Part shown: in pieces, positions 104-6,928 of the stretch
Position numbering within the stretch: the first letter of the stretch is position 1
Layout: the number at the start of each line of letters is the position of its first letter
Origin: Promineifilum sp.
GTDB taxonomy: Bacteria > Chloroflexota > Anaerolineae > Promineifilales > Promineifilaceae
DNA length: 64,000 nucleotides
NCBI GenBank assembly: GCA_018058545.1
Contig: JAGOZU010000007.1
Coordinates: forward strand, 1 to 64,000
Direction: 5' to 3'
Translations under genes and position numbers: made by a program
The notes under the pieces: generated by a model
Databases searched by the model: none
Told to the model about the DNA's origin: nothing
Seen by the model: the letters and a program-made list of their open reading frames with translations, nothing else

Positions 104-1690
104 TTAGCGTGCGTCCTTCAACGCCTCGAGCGCTCCCAATCGACCTGGCGCGCCCATGATGCCGCCACCGGGATGGGTGCCGGAGCCGCACTGGTAATAG
201 CCCTTGATGGGCGTGCGATACTTGGCGTAACCGGCGGCCGGTCGCAGGAAGAAGAGCTGCGACAGGTTAAGCTCGCCGTGAAAGATGTTGCCCTGGGAGA
301 TGCCGGTTATTCGCTCCACATCGACCGGCGTCAGCACCTGCCGGTGGAGGATGACGTCCTTGATGTCGGGGAAAGCCGTCTCCAGCACGTTGACGACGGC
401 ATCGCCGAACGCCTCGCGCTTCTCGTCCGTCCATTCGCCGTCGACCAGTTTGTAGGGCGCGTACTGCACGAAGCAGGACATGACGTGCTTGCCGGGCGGG
501 GCCATATCGGGGTCGATCATCGACGGGATGATGACGTCCATGTAGGGACGACGCGAAAAATTACCGTACTTGGCGTCGTCGTAGGCCCGCTCGATGGTGT
601 CGAGATCGGGACTCATGGAGATGGCTCCGGCCAGATGGCGGCCGGGGCCGGGACGACAAGCCAGTTCGGGCAGACGATCCAGGGCCAGATTGACCTTGCC
701 TGATGAGCCGAGCGTCTGGAAACGGCGCACGGCTCCCACCAGATCATCGGGCAGCTGGTTTGGCTCGACGAGGTTGAGGAAGGTTTGCTTCGGGTCGAGG
801 CTGGACAGCACCAGCGGGGCATGGATTTCGTCGCCGTTTTCCAGCACGACGCCCGACGTGCGGCCGTTCTTGACCAGCACCTTGGCTACGCCGGTATTGC
901 AACGGATCTCGGCTCCCTGTGCTTCGGCCGCGCGAGCCAGCGTTTGCGCCAGCCCGCCCGTGCCGCCCTTGTGGAAGCCCCAGGCGCGATAGGCGCCGTC
1001 GATCTCGCCCATGTAGTGGTGCAGCAGGACGTAGGCCGTGCCCGGTGAGCGCGGGCCGAGGAAGGTGCCGATGATGCCGCTGGCCGAGAGCGTGGCCTTG
1101 AGCGGCTCCGACTCGAACCATTGCTCGACGAAATCGGCCGCGCTCATGGTCATCAGCTTGGCCAGGACGTATAGCTGGTCCTGGCTCAGGCCCAGGAAGT
1201 GCCGCGCCATGTCGACCAGCCCCATCATGTCCTTGGGATTGAACGTGGTCGGGTCGGGCGGGATGACGCCGAGGATGTAGCGCACGGCCTTGGCCATGAA
1301 GTACATGTAGCGGGCGTACTCGTCGTAGGCGTCGGCGTCGCGCTGGGAGAAGCGGGCGATGTTGCGCAATGTCTGATAATGGTCGCCGTCGCGATAGAGA
1401 TAATCGCGGCCGTCCAGCGTGGGCGTCAGGGTGCTTTCCAGGGGCAGGATCGTCAGGCCGTGGGCCGGCAGGTTGAGATCGCGGATGATCTCCGGCCGGA
1501 AGAGGCTGACGACATAGGAGAAGACGGTGAATTTAAAGCCGGGGAAGATCTCCTCGGTGACGGATGCGCCACCCACCAGATAGCGCTTTTCCAGGACCAG
1601 TGTCTTTTTGCCGGCGCGGGCCAGGTAGGCGGCGGCCACAAGCCCGTTGTGCCCGCCGCCTATGACGATGGCGTCGTAGTGAGTATTCAT
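104..1690 (-). CDS. Phytoene-desaturase-like FAD-dependent oxidoreductase
   Basis: A 528-residue flavoprotein of the phytoene desaturase/PYROXD2-type amine oxidase superfamily. The N-terminal Rossmann motif IVIGGGHNGLVAAAYLAR (residues 8-25) and a following LEK...GG segment bind FAD. The C-terminal segment with GSGTHPGGGIMGAPG (about 498-512) is the conserved second FAD contact of this family. The substrate cannot be read from sequence. It is the last gene of a minus-strand run containing a GcvT-like protein, an IclR regulator and an MttB-like methyltransferase, so oxidation of a methylated amine or its product is a reasonable inference, and carotenoid synthesis is less likely because no crt genes are near. 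No promoter was recognised in the repeat-filled gap upstream. Confidence 0.85.
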   Translation of the reverse strand: MNTHYDAIVIGGGHNGLVAAAYLARAGKKTLVLEKRYLVGGASVTEEIFPGFKFTVFSYVVSLFRPEIIRDLNLPAHGLTILPLESTLTPTLDGRDYLYRDGDHYQTLRNIARFSQRDADAYDEYARYMYFMAKAVRYILGVIPPDPTTFNPKDMMGLVDMARHFLGLSQDQLYVLAKLMTMSAADFVEQWFESEPLKATLSASGIIGTFLGPRSPGTAYVLLHHYMGEIDGAYRAWGFHKGGTGGLAQTLARAAEAQGAEIRCNTGVAKVLVKNGRTSGVVLENGDEIHAPLVLSSLDPKQTFLNLVEPNQLPDDLVGAVRRFQTLGSSGKVNLALDRLPELACRPGPGRHLAGAISMSPDLDTIERAYDDAKYGNFSRRPYMDVIIPSMIDPDMAPPGKHVMSCFVQYAPYKLVDGEWTDEKREAFGDAVVNVLETAFPDIKDVILHRQVLTPVDVERITGISQGNIFHGELNLSQLFFLRPAAGYAKYRTPIKGYYQCGSGTHPGGGIMGAPGRLGALEALKDAR

Positions 1691-1805: not shown

Positions 1806-2210
1806 TTACTTCTTGCTTCTCTGGAGTATCCAGGGTTCGGGTTTGGTGATCATATGGACCAGTTTGCCGAGGATGTGGTCATAAGACGTGTATAAATCTC
1901 GTCCCTGATCCCGGTCAATATAGCCACACTTGACGGCGAATTCCAACCATGCCTGAGTCTCGGCCGCTTCTGCTTCCGAATGACTGAGCGCCAGCACAAA
2001 CGCGGCCTCATAGCGACGCTTTCGCCATGCTTCAGCCAGATTGGCGCAAACAGACCGGGATGAACGACGTATCTGATCGGTCAGCGAATATCGTTCCTCT
2101 GATGGGAATGCCTTGCTTAATTCGAATATTTTCATCGCCGTCTCAAAGGCTATCTTGTAAACATCCAGCTCGTAGTGGTTCCGTATAACCTCTTTGTCCG
2201 TCGTCATCAC
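1806..2210 (-). CDS. Four-helix bundle protein (23S rRNA intervening-sequence family)
   Basis: A 134-residue protein matching the four-helix bundle/S23 family. Recognisable features are the opening YELDVYKIAFETAMKIFELS, the central LTDQIRRSSRSVCANLAEAW (about 44-63) and the YEAAFVLALSHSEAEAAETQ helix. Family members were first described as ORFs inside 23S rRNA intervening sequences, but many copies are free-standing and their cellular role is unknown. This copy is not in an rRNA gene. It sits inside a catabolic gene run and is bracketed by two octamer arrays of opposite orientation (1716-1779 and 2217-2243), which suggests it arrived together with repeat DNA. Start chosen at MMTTDKE; the second methionine is equally possible. 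Confidence 0.85.
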   Translation of the reverse strand: MMTTDKEVIRNHYELDVYKIAFETAMKIFELSKAFPSEERYSLTDQIRRSSRSVCANLAEAWRKRRYEAAFVLALSHSEAEAAETQAWLEFAVKCGYIDRDQGRDLYTSYDHILGKLVHMITKPEPWILQRSKK

Positions 2211-2243: not shown

Positions 2244-3443
2244 TCACGCTTTCTTCCTCGGCGGATCGAAGAACGGGGTCGGCACAATCGTCGCCGGACA
2301 CAGCTTGCGCTTGAATTCGACGGTCACTTCTACATCGACCCTATCGCCGATGCGGGCGTGGGGATTGAGCAATGTGCCGATGCCGACGTACTGCTTCAGG
2401 ATGGGCGCGAAAGTGTGGCTGGTGATCTGGCCGATGTGATGCCCCTTGTTGCCCGACTCATAGACCGGCACGGCCGATCGCGAGGCGCGTCCGGCTACAT
2501 GCGGCGGCAAGTCCTCCTCGGCGAATAGCTGCTCCAGCGCGGCCCAGTCATACTGCACGCCGACGAAGCCCCAGGTGGAGCCTTTCGCGCGCTCCTGCGC
2601 CAGCGCGTGGCGGCCGATGAAATCCCCCTTGCGTGGCGAGACAGCCCAGCCCAGCCCGATCTCATAGGGCGATGACTTCTGGCTTTCGATGATGGCGTGC
2701 TGGCTGGAGATGTAGTCCACGGCGATCATGATTAGCCCGGCCTCGATTCGGGCGATGTCCAGGGCGATGATCCCCGCCGGCAGGATGCCGTGGCCCGTCC
2801 CGCGCTCCATCAGGCGATCCCACAGGCTCTCGGCATAATCCGGCCGCACCCAGAGTTCATAGCCCAGATCGCCCGTATAGCCGGTGCGGGTGATGGTGAT
2901 GGGGAAATCGTCGACGGTGCCGTGGGCGAGATGGAAGTAGGGCAATTTGGCGAAATCGATGCCGCTGACGACCTCTTGCAGGATGGCCCGACTGCGCGGC
3001 CCCTGGATGGCCAGCGCCGCCAGATCGTCGCTGACGTTGACGACCTGGGCGTTGAGACCATAGCCGACGTCCTGGAACCAGCGGCCGCTGGGATCGGCCG
3101 AGGTGATACGGAAGTGGTTGGTGTCCAGCCTCGACACGGTGCCGTCGTCGATGACCTTGCCGTGGGCGTCGCACCAGGGAGTGTAATAGACCTGGCCGAT
3201 TTTCTGTTTGGTGACATCGCGGGTGATGACCCGGTCGACGAGGCGGGCGGCGTCGGGGCCGGTGACCTCATACTTGAACAGGGGGGTGACGTCGATCAGC
3301 GCCGCGCTGTTGCGAATGGCGTAATATTCCCGGTCATGGGACATCTCGTAGATGCCCGCCGCCAGGTAGCCGGACCAGTTTCGCCATTCATAACTATCAC
3401 AGGCGGCCGACGTCCGGGTGTGGAACGGGGTCGGTAGGGGCAT
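2244..3443 (-). CDS. GcvT-family aminomethyltransferase
   Basis: A 399-residue protein of the glycine-cleavage T-protein/dimethylglycine and DMSP demethylase superfamily, whose members move a one-carbon unit to tetrahydrofolate. Visible family features include RNSAALIDVTPLFKYEVTGP near residue 45, a central RTGYTGDLGYELWV folate-domain motif (about 185-200) and a C-terminal barrel ending in the VEVTVEFKRK segment. Length fits the family. No other glycine-cleavage gene (gcvH, gcvP) is near, so a role in demethylation of a methylated amine or related compound fits better than glycine cleavage. It lies 67 bp downstream of the IclR gene on the same strand. The substrate is unknown; it could be an amine or a sulfonium compound. 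Confidence 0.85.
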   Translation of the reverse strand: MPLPTPFHTRTSAACDSYEWRNWSGYLAAGIYEMSHDREYYAIRNSAALIDVTPLFKYEVTGPDAARLVDRVITRDVTKQKIGQVYYTPWCDAHGKVIDDGTVSRLDTNHFRITSADPSGRWFQDVGYGLNAQVVNVSDDLAALAIQGPRSRAILQEVVSGIDFAKLPYFHLAHGTVDDFPITITRTGYTGDLGYELWVRPDYAESLWDRLMERGTGHGILPAGIIALDIARIEAGLIMIAVDYISSQHAIIESQKSSPYEIGLGWAVSPRKGDFIGRHALAQERAKGSTWGFVGVQYDWAALEQLFAEEDLPPHVAGRASRSAVPVYESGNKGHHIGQITSHTFAPILKQYVGIGTLLNPHARIGDRVDVEVTVEFKRKLCPATIVPTPFFDPPRKKA

Positions 3444-3510: not shown

Positions 3511-4317
3511 TTATCCTCTGTAGCCCAGCTTGTGTGAGACGCGCCCGGCGGCCTCGCGCACCAGTTCGCCGATTCGGAGCACGCGCTCCTCGGTCATTCG
3601 CGTCAATGTGCCGCCCAGGCTAATGGCGGCGACCGGGCGGCCGTTGGCATCCAGCAGCGGCGCTCCGACGGCCAGGAAGCCCATCTCTAGTTCCTCGGCG
3701 ACGACGGCGTACCCCTGCCGGCGAATCTCGGCCAGACGCTCCCGCAGGCGTCGGGGCGTGAGGGGCGGCCCCTGCTTCGTTCGCTCCGTCAGGGACGGCA
3801 ACGACCGGGGCAGGGCGGCGTCCAGTTCCCCGGGCGGCAGCCAGGCCAGAATGGCCTTGCCGGTTGAGGTGGCATAGACCGGCCAGCGGCTGCCGATGTG
3901 CTGGTTGCCGCTGGTGACATATTCACCGGGGATCTCCTCGATGATGACCATCTCGCCGCCCAGCATGATCTCCAGGGTTGCCGTCTCGCCCGTCTGCAAC
4001 GCCAGCGCTTCCAGTTCGGGCAGGGCGACGGCCCGCACCGAGTTGGCCCGCGCAGCCCTCGCGCCCAGGACGATTAGCCCCGAACCCAGTCGGTAGGTGT
4101 CGCCAGAGGGGTCGCGCACCACGTATTCGGCGCTCTCCAGAGCCGTCAGCAGGCGATAGGCCGTCGTCCGGTTTAGCCCGGTCACCTCGGCCAGCTCGCT
4201 GACGTTCCAGGACGGCCGCTCGTCGGTGAAGGCCTCCAGCATGGTCACGGCACGCCGAATGGATTGCGTGCCGGCCATCGGCTCGGCGACCTGGCTGGGG
4301 GATTGGTTCGGAGTCAT
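3511..4317 (-). CDS. IclR-family transcriptional regulator
   Basis: A 268-residue regulator. The N-terminal winged helix-turn-helix spans about residues 18-80 ([12 protein letters not shown], then [20 protein letters not shown]). The C-terminal IclR effector domain runs from about 95 to 265 and contains [11 protein letters not shown]. Its ATG lies inside the mttB-like stop codon (ATGA overlap, 4314-4317), so the two genes are translationally coupled and co-transcribed from the promoter at 5884-5912. The operators downstream of that promoter and of the yitT promoter are the obvious candidate targets. Autoregulation would follow. The effector is probably a substrate or product of the adjacent enzymes; that is inference. 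Confidence 0.93.
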
Positions 4318-5828
4318 CGGGCAAACCGCCGTTTGCGTCGCCGGTCATCGCCGGACGATTCGGTGGGCCGGGCGGGCGCGGGCACCATCGGCAGCGGCGC
4401 GACCTCGCTCATGCCGGCGATGATGATCTGCTGCATCTCATTGACGATCAGCGGGTCGGTTTCCAACGGTTCGTAGGCCGCCAGCCGCCGCTCGACCTCA
4501 TCGGTCGCCCGTCGCAGCAAATCCTTGCCGCCGGATTTGACCCAGTTCTCGCGATTGTCGCGGTCAGTCACCGGCGAGGGCATGTGGAGTTCATGTGGCC
4601 AGTGGGTCATGGTGTGTTCGGCGGTGATCAGATGTTGCTCGGCCATCACCTCGCGCGCCAGATCGATCGTCGGCAGGTCATCGACCGGTTTCACCTCGCG
4701 GACGAAATGTAACGCCTGCCCGCATAGATCGTCGTCGTAGACCAGCTTGGGCAGGCTGAAGGTCAGCACGAAGTCGAGCATTCCCGGCCCGGAGACGGAG
4801 TTGATGCCCGCCAACGCCGCCAGCAGCGCGCTGCCGAACGTCTCCGCCCCGGCCTGGGCGTCGAGGAATTTGGCGTCGCTGAGGGCCATGTAGGCCTGGG
4901 TGGGCAGCCTCAGCGCTTTGCCGATCTGGGCGTAGGCCACGTCCAGGCGCAGGGCCTGGATGCCCAGCATGGGGGAAGAGGCGGCGCGCATGTGGAACTC
5001 GGCCGGCGCGCCACCGAACAGCACCGGCGTGCCGGGTTTAACGATTTGGGCCATCACCACCCCGGCCAGCGTGTCGACGGTGTGGAAGACGGCCGCGCCC
5101 ACGAGCGACACCGGCGCGATGAGACCCATCAGCGTGACGGGGACGATCTCGACCGGGATGCCCGCCTCGATGCAATCCAGCATGTTCTGGCAGGAGTCCT
5201 CGCTATAGCGGAACATGCCGGTCGCGGTGATGGTGAAGATCGACATCGGCCGGGCGATGAGGTCGGCCCGGTCGTGGCGGAAGAGCTGCATCATCTCGGC
5301 CATGCGGCCGACGCCGTGCTCGGTGAACGCGCCGGAGACGACCGGCTTGCGCGAGTTTGTCAGGCAGAGATAGAGCCGCCAGGCGTCGGAGACCTGGGCC
5401 TCGATGTCCTCGTTGGTGGAGAAGGCCGTGGCCAGATAGTCGATGTTGGCCAGCCCGTCGCCCAGCCGGACGTACTCGACGAAATCGGCCGTGTTGGCCG
5501 GGCGGGTCTGGCCGGTGCGATGGTCGAGGATCTTGAGGCCGCTGGAGGCGGGGGTGAAGTGGACGTTGTCGCCGCCGATCTCGGCCTGGGGAACGCCGGC
5601 ACGGTCAAAGAGGGTGAAGGAGCGCGGGGCGGAGGCGACGGCACGCTCGACGATGTCGGGCGGGAAGAGGATGCGGCCGTCGTCGGTCTGCGGCAGACCG
5701 GCATCGAGCAATCGTTGTCTCAGCGCCGGGCCGCGCACTTCCATGCCGATCTCGGCCAGAATGCGGCCCGCCTCGGCCAGGATTTGTTGTATGAGTGTGT
5801 CGTCCAGAAGCTGGATTCGCGGCCGCAT
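4314..5828 (-). CDS. Non-pyrrolysine MttB-superfamily methyltransferase
   Basis: A 504-residue protein of the trimethylamine methyltransferase (MttB) superfamily. Characterised members demethylate quaternary or tertiary amines and pass the methyl group to a corrinoid protein. The family TIM-barrel body is complete: [20 protein letters not shown] (about residues 100-119), [10 protein letters not shown] (about 157-166) and [20 protein letters not shown] (about 314-333). The frame runs through without an internal TAG, so there is no pyrrolysine, as in glycine-betaine or carnitine-type MttB enzymes. A GGAGGAG ribosome site precedes the ATG. No corrinoid-binding (MttC-like) gene is in the window. 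The last roughly 30 residues are Arg/Pro-rich and look non-conserved. Substrate unknown. Confidence 0.88.
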
Positions 5829-5840
5829 GGCTCCTCCGTG

Positions 5841-5873
5841 TGTTCACAATGTGAATGATATGTTCATAAATAC
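5841..5873 (-). promoter_or_regulatory. Candidate IclR operator, mttB promoter
   Basis: TTCACA-A-TGTGAA forms a perfect 6-1-6 palindrome within 5841-5856. It is followed 20 bp later (start to start) by a second TGTTCAT half-site at 5861-5867. The same layout occurs at 6885-6911 ahead of the yitT-type gene. It lies just downstream of the -10 box at 5884-5889, a position suited to repression. Confidence 0.7.
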
Positions 5874-5883
5874 ATCTGCCCGC

Positions 5884-5912
5884 AGTGTAGCACGCCTGAA
5901 ACAGGATGGCAA
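5884..5912 (-). promoter_or_regulatory. Promoter of the mttB-iclR operon
   Basis: On the minus strand TTGCCA (5912-5907), a 17-bp spacer and TACACT (5889-5884) form a sigma-70-type promoter, with an extended -10 TGC in front. The predicted start near 5877 places the palindromic operator in the first few dozen transcribed bases. Confidence 0.65.
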
Positions 5913-5933
5913 TGAATGCACGGGGCGAGGAGG

Positions 5934-6869
5934 CTAAAACCCCTTTCGCAGGCTTCGGAAGCCTTCGCCCAGAATCTCCTGCGCCTGGCCAATGATGACG
6001 AAGGCGTCCGGGTCGGCTTCGTGGATGATGCTCTTGAGCAGCACCGTGTCGGCGCGGCTGACGGCGCACAGCAAGATATGGCGCTCCGTGCCGGTGTACA
6101 TGCCCCGCCCGGCCCATTCGGTGACGCCGCGCTCCATCTCGGCCAGGACGCGGTCGGCGACGGCTTGTGGCCGGGTGGTGATGATCGTGGCCACGCGCAT
6201 GATGTTTGGCCCGTTGAGCGTCACCTCGACCAAAACGCCGCCCACGTAAAGGGCGATGACCGCATAGAGGGCCAGCTCCCAGCCGAAGGTCATCCCGGCC
6301 AAAAAGACGACCAGCCCGTCGGTGTAGAGGTAGGCTTGCGACAGCGGCATGCCGATGCGACGTTCCAGGATGCGGGCCAGAATGTCGGTGCCGCCGCTGG
6401 TGGCCCGCGCGCGGAAGATCAGGCCGACGGCGACCCCGGCCGTCACACCACCATAGAGGGTGTTGAGCACCAGATCGTCGGTCAGTGTGGCCCCCGGCCA
6501 TGAGAATTGCAGGCCGTCGAGCACGATTGCAAACACGAATGAGGAGAAGATCGTCCGCGCCAGAAAGCGATAGCCGCCGAGATAGTACCAGCCGAGGGCG
6601 AAGAGGGGGATATTGAGGATGAACGACACCGTGCCGATGGGCCAGCCGGTGAAGTTGTTGATGAGCTGCGCCGTGCCGCTCAGCCCGCCGGCGACAAGCC
6701 GGTGGGGGATGAAGAAGAGGTGCATGCTGAGGGCCAGCATCACGCTGCCCAGGATGATCAGTAAGTAATCGCGAATGATGCGCCCGGCGGCCTCGCGTCG
6801 CCGGTTGGGGCGCATTTGCCGCAGCCGCTCCCCGGCCTGGGCCAGCCGATCTTTAATGGATGTCGTCAT
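5934..6869 (-). CDS. YitT-family membrane protein (DUF2179)
   Basis: A 311-residue integral membrane protein of the YitT family (five or six helices from about residue 30 to 215) with a C-terminal cytoplasmic DUF2179 domain (about 222-305: TIITTRPQAVADRVLAEMER, GRGMYTGTERHILLC, DAFVIIGQAQEILGEGF). Biochemical roles in this family are poorly known; a transporter function is commonly assumed. Because its promoter carries the same operator as the mttB-like gene, it is probably co-regulated with the catabolic cluster and could move the substrate or an associated ion. It ends 105 bp before the mttB-like start, with the mttB promoter in that gap. Confidence 0.9.
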   Translation of the reverse strand: MTTSIKDRLAQAGERLRQMRPNRRREAAGRIIRDYLLIILGSVMLALSMHLFFIPHRLVAGGLSGTAQLINNFTGWPIGTVSFILNIPLFALGWYYLGGYRFLARTIFSSFVFAIVLDGLQFSWPGATLTDDLVLNTLYGGVTAGVAVGLIFRARATSGGTDILARILERRIGMPLSQAYLYTDGLVVFLAGMTFGWELALYAVIALYVGGVLVEVTLNGPNIMRVATIITTRPQAVADRVLAEMERGVTEWAGRGMYTGTERHILLCAVSRADTVLLKSIIHEADPDAFVIIGQAQEILGEGFRSLRKGF

Positions 6870-6884
6870 GGTGTGTCCTTTGCC

Positions 6885-6911
6885 TGTTCATATTATGAAC
6901 AATATGTTCAT
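6885..6911 (-). promoter_or_regulatory. Candidate IclR operator, yitT promoter
   Basis: TGTTCATA-T-TATGAACA (6885-6901) is a perfect 8-1-8 palindrome. A third TGTTCAT half-site follows at 6905-6911, 20 bp from the first. The spacing and arrangement equal those at 5841-5867, and the sequence is shared, so one dimeric regulator, most likely the adjacent IclR protein, should bind both. Confidence 0.75.
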
Positions 6912-6919
6912 TTATGGAG

Positions 6920-6928
6920 ATTATACCA
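6920..6928 (-). promoter_or_regulatory. Extended -10 promoter of yitT-type gene
   Basis: TGGTATAAT on the minus strand is a perfect extended -10 element (TGn plus TATAAT). No good -35 box is visible 16-18 bp upstream. The predicted start falls at the edge of the operator 6885-6911, which suits repression. Confidence 0.6.

Follow-up and report, generated by a model that had tools for sequence, protein, structure and literature searches.

Operators of three boxes are an established feature of the IclR family, described for PcaU, PobR and HmgR and for 32 predicted orthologous groups, and the external half-site is required for binding by PcaU (Suvorova and Gelfand, 2021, PMC8222616). On the enzymatic side, the described system nearest to the locus studied here is glycine betaine demethylation by MtgB and MtgC (PMC12478193).

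Here we describe two three-box sites in a 64,000-nucleotide stretch of DNA from Promineifilum sp. (hereafter the window), one before an mttB-like operon and one before a yitT gene. As in the surveyed three-box operators, the boxes alternate in direction, and the IclR-family palindrome with an external half-site in direct repeat is shared with PcaU, PobR and HmgR of Acinetobacter and Pseudomonas; the box sequence differs, and the targets of those regulators belong to aromatic catabolism. The third box follows the palindrome after 3 bp, whereas the third repeat of PcaU lies farther away, after a 10-bp gap. Because three-box operators are established in the family, the architecture is not new. 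The new elements are the regulon itself, which combines mttB-type demethylation with YitT, and how strongly the comparison of genomes supports it; the freshest lead is that YitT recurs as a regulon member. In the literature examined here we found no earlier report of an mttB/yitT regulon. Such a regulon would be a clean case from a little-studied phylum, and it would tie YitT-family membrane proteins to methylated-amine metabolism. Judging from the sequence, we consider it highly likely that both sites are operators of the IclR protein encoded in the mttB-like operon, with predicted auto-repression just downstream of the -10 that a ligand of the methylated amine or betaine type would relieve.

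Two sites, their promoters and their genes

The preliminary description of this DNA held that both promoters carry a palindrome followed by a further half-site, and this is true to the base. A single pattern, TGTTCAyAnTrTGAAyr-ATA-TGTTCAT, fits 5841-5867 and 6885-6911 with zero mismatches and has 0 matches in 100 dinucleotide shuffles (Table 1). The yitT copy is the perfect 8-1-8 palindrome it was said to be, the mttB copy differs at two bases in box 2, and at both sites the third half-site does start exactly 20 bp from the start of the first. Box 3 repeats box 1 directly, so that box 2 pairs with either neighbour as an inverted repeat; these two repeats overlap, and a distance of 10 bp, one helical turn, separates their centres. 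The first pair, as TGTTCATATTATGAACA, fits TGTYCRYW3RYGRACA, the TGT-11-ACA subgroup of group 1 (GKTYCRYW3-4RYGRAMC), with two deviations in box 2 of the mttB copy; this subgroup stands at 0% for Chloroflexi in the table of the survey, whereas our site lies in Chloroflexota (PMC8222616). The second pair keeps the core spacing of group 2 (TGRAACAN1-2TGTTYCA), with the TGR and YCA cores 9 bp apart (TGA-N9-TCA, N1), and differs in the outer letters.

Table 1. Positions of the candidate operators, predicted promoter elements and genes in the window
Feature	Position	Strand	Remarks
Three-box operator, mttB-like operon	5841..5867	+	TGTTCACAATGTGAATGATATGTTCAT; boxes 5841-5848, 5850-5857 (inverted), 5861-5867 (direct)
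Three-box operator, yitT	6885..6911	+	TGTTCATATTATGAACAATATGTTCAT; palindrome 6885-6901, third box 6905-6911
Predicted mttB promoter	5884..5912	-	-35 TTGCCA 5912-5907, 17-bp spacer, -10 TACACT 5889-5884; promoter scan
Predicted yitT extended -10	6920..6928	-	TGGTATAAT; read from sequence and genus comparison
MttB-superfamily methyltransferase (mttB-like)	4314..5828	-	nearest solved: glycine betaine methyltransferase 9yce, 2qne
IclR-family regulator (HTH_IclR + IclR_C)	3511..4317	-	candidate binder of both operators; nearest solved: IclR proteins
GcvT-like folate-dependent aminomethyltransferase	2244..3443	-	third operon gene
FAD-dependent oxidoreductase (CrtO/amine-oxidase-like)	104..1690	-	linked to iclR-gcvT in relatives
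YitT-family membrane protein (PF02588 + DUF2179)	5934..6869	-	predicted second regulon member; operator upstream

Both operators are flanked by a predicted -10 on one side and, on the other, by the start codon of a gene on the minus strand. The claim that both lie just downstream of a good -10 agrees with the promoter scan at mttB and with the extended -10 TGGTATAAT at yitT, the operators starting 16 bp and 8 bp downstream, respectively. Most of the conserved operators in the genus have a -10 directly upstream. The mttB -10 (TACACT or TAAACT) is kept; in five relatives it lies 3–4 bp away from the operator, here 16 bp, and the yitT -10 (TATAAT) lies at 8–12 bp. At mttB in G004 and G006 the -10 elements are less clear.

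The iclR gene is encoded in the mttB-like operon, as had been proposed, and overlaps the mttB-like gene by 4 bp. Its product scores 53.4 bits for HTH_IclR and 133.1 bits for IclR_C (Pfam cut-offs 22 and 24), which places it in the IclR family, and it is the only IclR_C protein of the genome. Against the PcaR/PcaU/PobR model TIGR02431 it reaches 153.3 bits, below the cut-off of 284.75. We therefore call it a relative of PcaR/PcaU/PobR, not a member: an IclR-family protein that would work like them.

An operator downstream of the -10 normally gives repression, and it has this position at every genus site with a recognised -10. This argues against a regulator that binds both sites as an activator, or acts sometimes as activator and sometimes as repressor, like PcaU and PobR. 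We hold such a mode of action to be quite improbable, even though the regulator does match TIGR02431 below its cut-off and PcaU/PobR-type regulators are the best-known users of three-box operators (PMC8222616).

The genome encodes a single MTTB protein, the mttB-like product, which shares its superfamily with the methyltransferase of the MtgB/MtgC system. It scores 263.8 bits against the curated cut-off of 525 for the pyrrolysine-type model TIGR02369, and its frame of 504 amino acids is uninterrupted, whereas that type expects an in-frame amber codon. The nearest solved structures to the GcvT-like protein are trimethylamine N-oxide demethylase (its C-terminal half) and aminomethyltransferases. 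The MtgC-like corrinoid gene is not beside mttB but on contig C48 (L189, 431-3302), between AcsV/RamA-like activase and betaine-homocysteine S-methyltransferase-like genes, and no recognisable operator was found at that locus. Its product is the probable partner of the window's MttB. The structural relatives of MttB and GcvT, together with this corrinoid locus, make plausible a demethylation pathway whose putative substrate is a methylated amine or betaine. Downstream of gcvT and before the gene for the FAD oxidoreductase, the window has a small ORF of the PF05635 23S rRNA intervening-sequence type, a four-helix protein (1806-2210, minus strand); in several genus members the gap from gcvT to the oxidoreductase gene is only about 25–100 bp.

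Occurrence in the genome, the genus and the class

In the whole genome assembly (3.6 Mb in 185 contigs, 98% complete), a scan for the 27-bp pattern that tolerated 3 mismatches returned only the two sites and one decayed copy. A search for just the 17-bp palindrome, tolerating 2 mismatches, led to the same three places, all of which precede mttB, yitT or a yitT fragment. A genome-wide motif scan had been called for as a check on the proposed regulon, and its outcome is that the motif is confined to three places rather than scattered at random. The third copy (C107:13194-13220) precedes a yitT fragment (MTTSIKDRLAQAGER...) that ends after about 15 codons. We rejected it as a new regulon member, as it belongs to a 131-bp stretch, 88% identical, in which the promoter and start of yitT were duplicated and beyond which the sequence is unrelated. 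Since the third copy fronts a broken yitT duplicate, this genome holds two working candidate sites and one relic. The duplicate lies near a contig end, at 1457-1586 of L003 (G000:C107:11694-13546), and just downstream, from about 1768, is a frame that has a Cys-pair motif and resembles the N-terminus of a transposase. A match from a relaxed scan, C167:9353-9385, falls inside a large open frame and was taken as chance.

Within Promineifilum the operator precedes mttB in all eight genomes examined (8/8). Before yitT it is present in four, this one, G001, G003 and G006, and in the genus comparison it was absent or unrecognisable in G002, G004 and G005. The incomplete distribution at yitT, the fact that yitT neighbours mttB in most genus members and the partial yitT duplicate in this genome could all be explained if the yitT operator were a passive copy, left by local duplication of the adjacent promoter, and yitT were not a working member of the regulon. 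In G001, however, the two operators are about 31 kb apart, and so are not kept together by neighbourhood, yet the yitT operator is a perfect consensus. Outside the genus, locus L135 has an operator between divergent yitT and iclR. We consequently regard a passive copy as unlikely and keep yitT as a predicted target.

Across the class, most matches with 3 mismatches look like chance, and mirror-pattern controls also match a few times. Two genomes of other families have the operator with 1 mismatch, G355 before an iclR of 47% identity and G052 before an mttB that adjoins an IclR of 50% identity.

Operator and recognition helix in IclR relatives

We collected 80 IclR relatives from genomes of Chloroflexota, Gemmatimonadota, Acidobacteriota and others and searched up to 300 bp upstream of iclR for the palindrome TTCAYANTRTGAA, matching at 11 or more of 13 positions. 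It was found for 47 of the 80, compared with 2.4 in shuffles and 2.3 in other windows of the same loci. The remaining 33 had no such palindrome upstream of iclR, partly because iclR lies inside an operon. A third half-site follows at exactly 20 bp in 35 of the 47 palindrome-bearing relatives, compared with 0–6 at each of fifteen other offsets. Because the third box played no part in finding the palindromes, this comparison shows that, at the level of sequence, the three-box operator is tied to this IclR subfamily and that the 20-bp spacing has been selected. It is strong comparative evidence for selection on a third IclR operator box at a fixed spacing. The mttB and yitT targets also recur in other arrangements, as mttB and iclR-gcvT diverge from one operator at L129, and yitT and iclR-gcvT do so at L135.

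The second residue of the NRTT/NKTT motif in the recognition helix, IclR position 50, is Arg or Lys, and the tree implies at least five changes between the two; the regulator in the window has Arg50 (NRTTAYRLL). Among regulators with scored iclR-upstream sites, boxes with an outer TGT occur for 5 of 9 with Arg and 0 of 36 with Lys (p = 1e-4, in a test framed after the data had been seen). With clades collapsed by eye and the genus and G052 sites added, the counts are 5/8 for Arg and 0/15–24 for Lys (p = 2e-3 to 3e-4). A version restricted to G/T is weaker (p = 0.024), and there are exceptions to the TGT rule among Arg regulators. In the survey, the same alignment position, TtgV Arg47 and PobR Arg56 as equated with position 50 through our own alignment, correlates with an outer operator base (PMC8222616). 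In about five separate lineages, one residue of the recognition helix would thereby be linked to such a base.

Since many regulator families use palindromes of this size, the sites could be bound by another regulator encoded elsewhere, for example of the GntR, MarR or TetR type, with the operon's IclR acting at other sites. Such a regulator would have to account for a palindrome that lies upstream of iclR itself in more than half of the relatives, from several phyla, mostly with the third box, and for a box sequence that varies with a residue of the IclR recognition helix; we think this very improbable. The genome scan, the conservation in the genus, the iclR-upstream operators of distant relatives, the covariation of residue and box and the single IclR_C protein all support the IclR as the predicted binder of both operators, in line with the small three-half-site regulon first suggested for this DNA.

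Predicted regulation and related arrangements

In the regulation that we propose, IclR without ligand would probably occupy the full three-box site a short way past the -10 and hinder initiation or early elongation. The repressed units would be mttB-iclR-gcvT, probably with the FAD enzyme, and yitT; autoregulation would follow from the position of iclR inside the repressed operon. Release would probably be brought about by a methylated amine, a betaine or a demethylation intermediate. The third box may take up another dimer or allow a dimer to bind in a different frame, and alternative dimerisation has been raised for IclR operators (PMC8222616).

A work on the related YczE group treats the function of these membrane proteins as unknown (PMC4944035). 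As a tentative idea, unlikely as it stands, YitT/DUF2179 might act alongside MttB-type demethylation by carrying or sensing a methylated amine or betaine, with IclR choosing between two overlapping dimer frames.

Comparable arrangements were seen near more distant IclR proteins. Upstream of one with 37% identity (L097, G036:C27) the three-box geometry is alike and the box differs (TATGCAACcatGTTGCGTATTATGCAAC). On G363:C81 (L104/L030, about 1516-1562), divergent proline-dehydrogenase-like and amine-oxidase-like genes flank nested copies of the palindrome, about 3.7 kb from an IclR of 38% identity.
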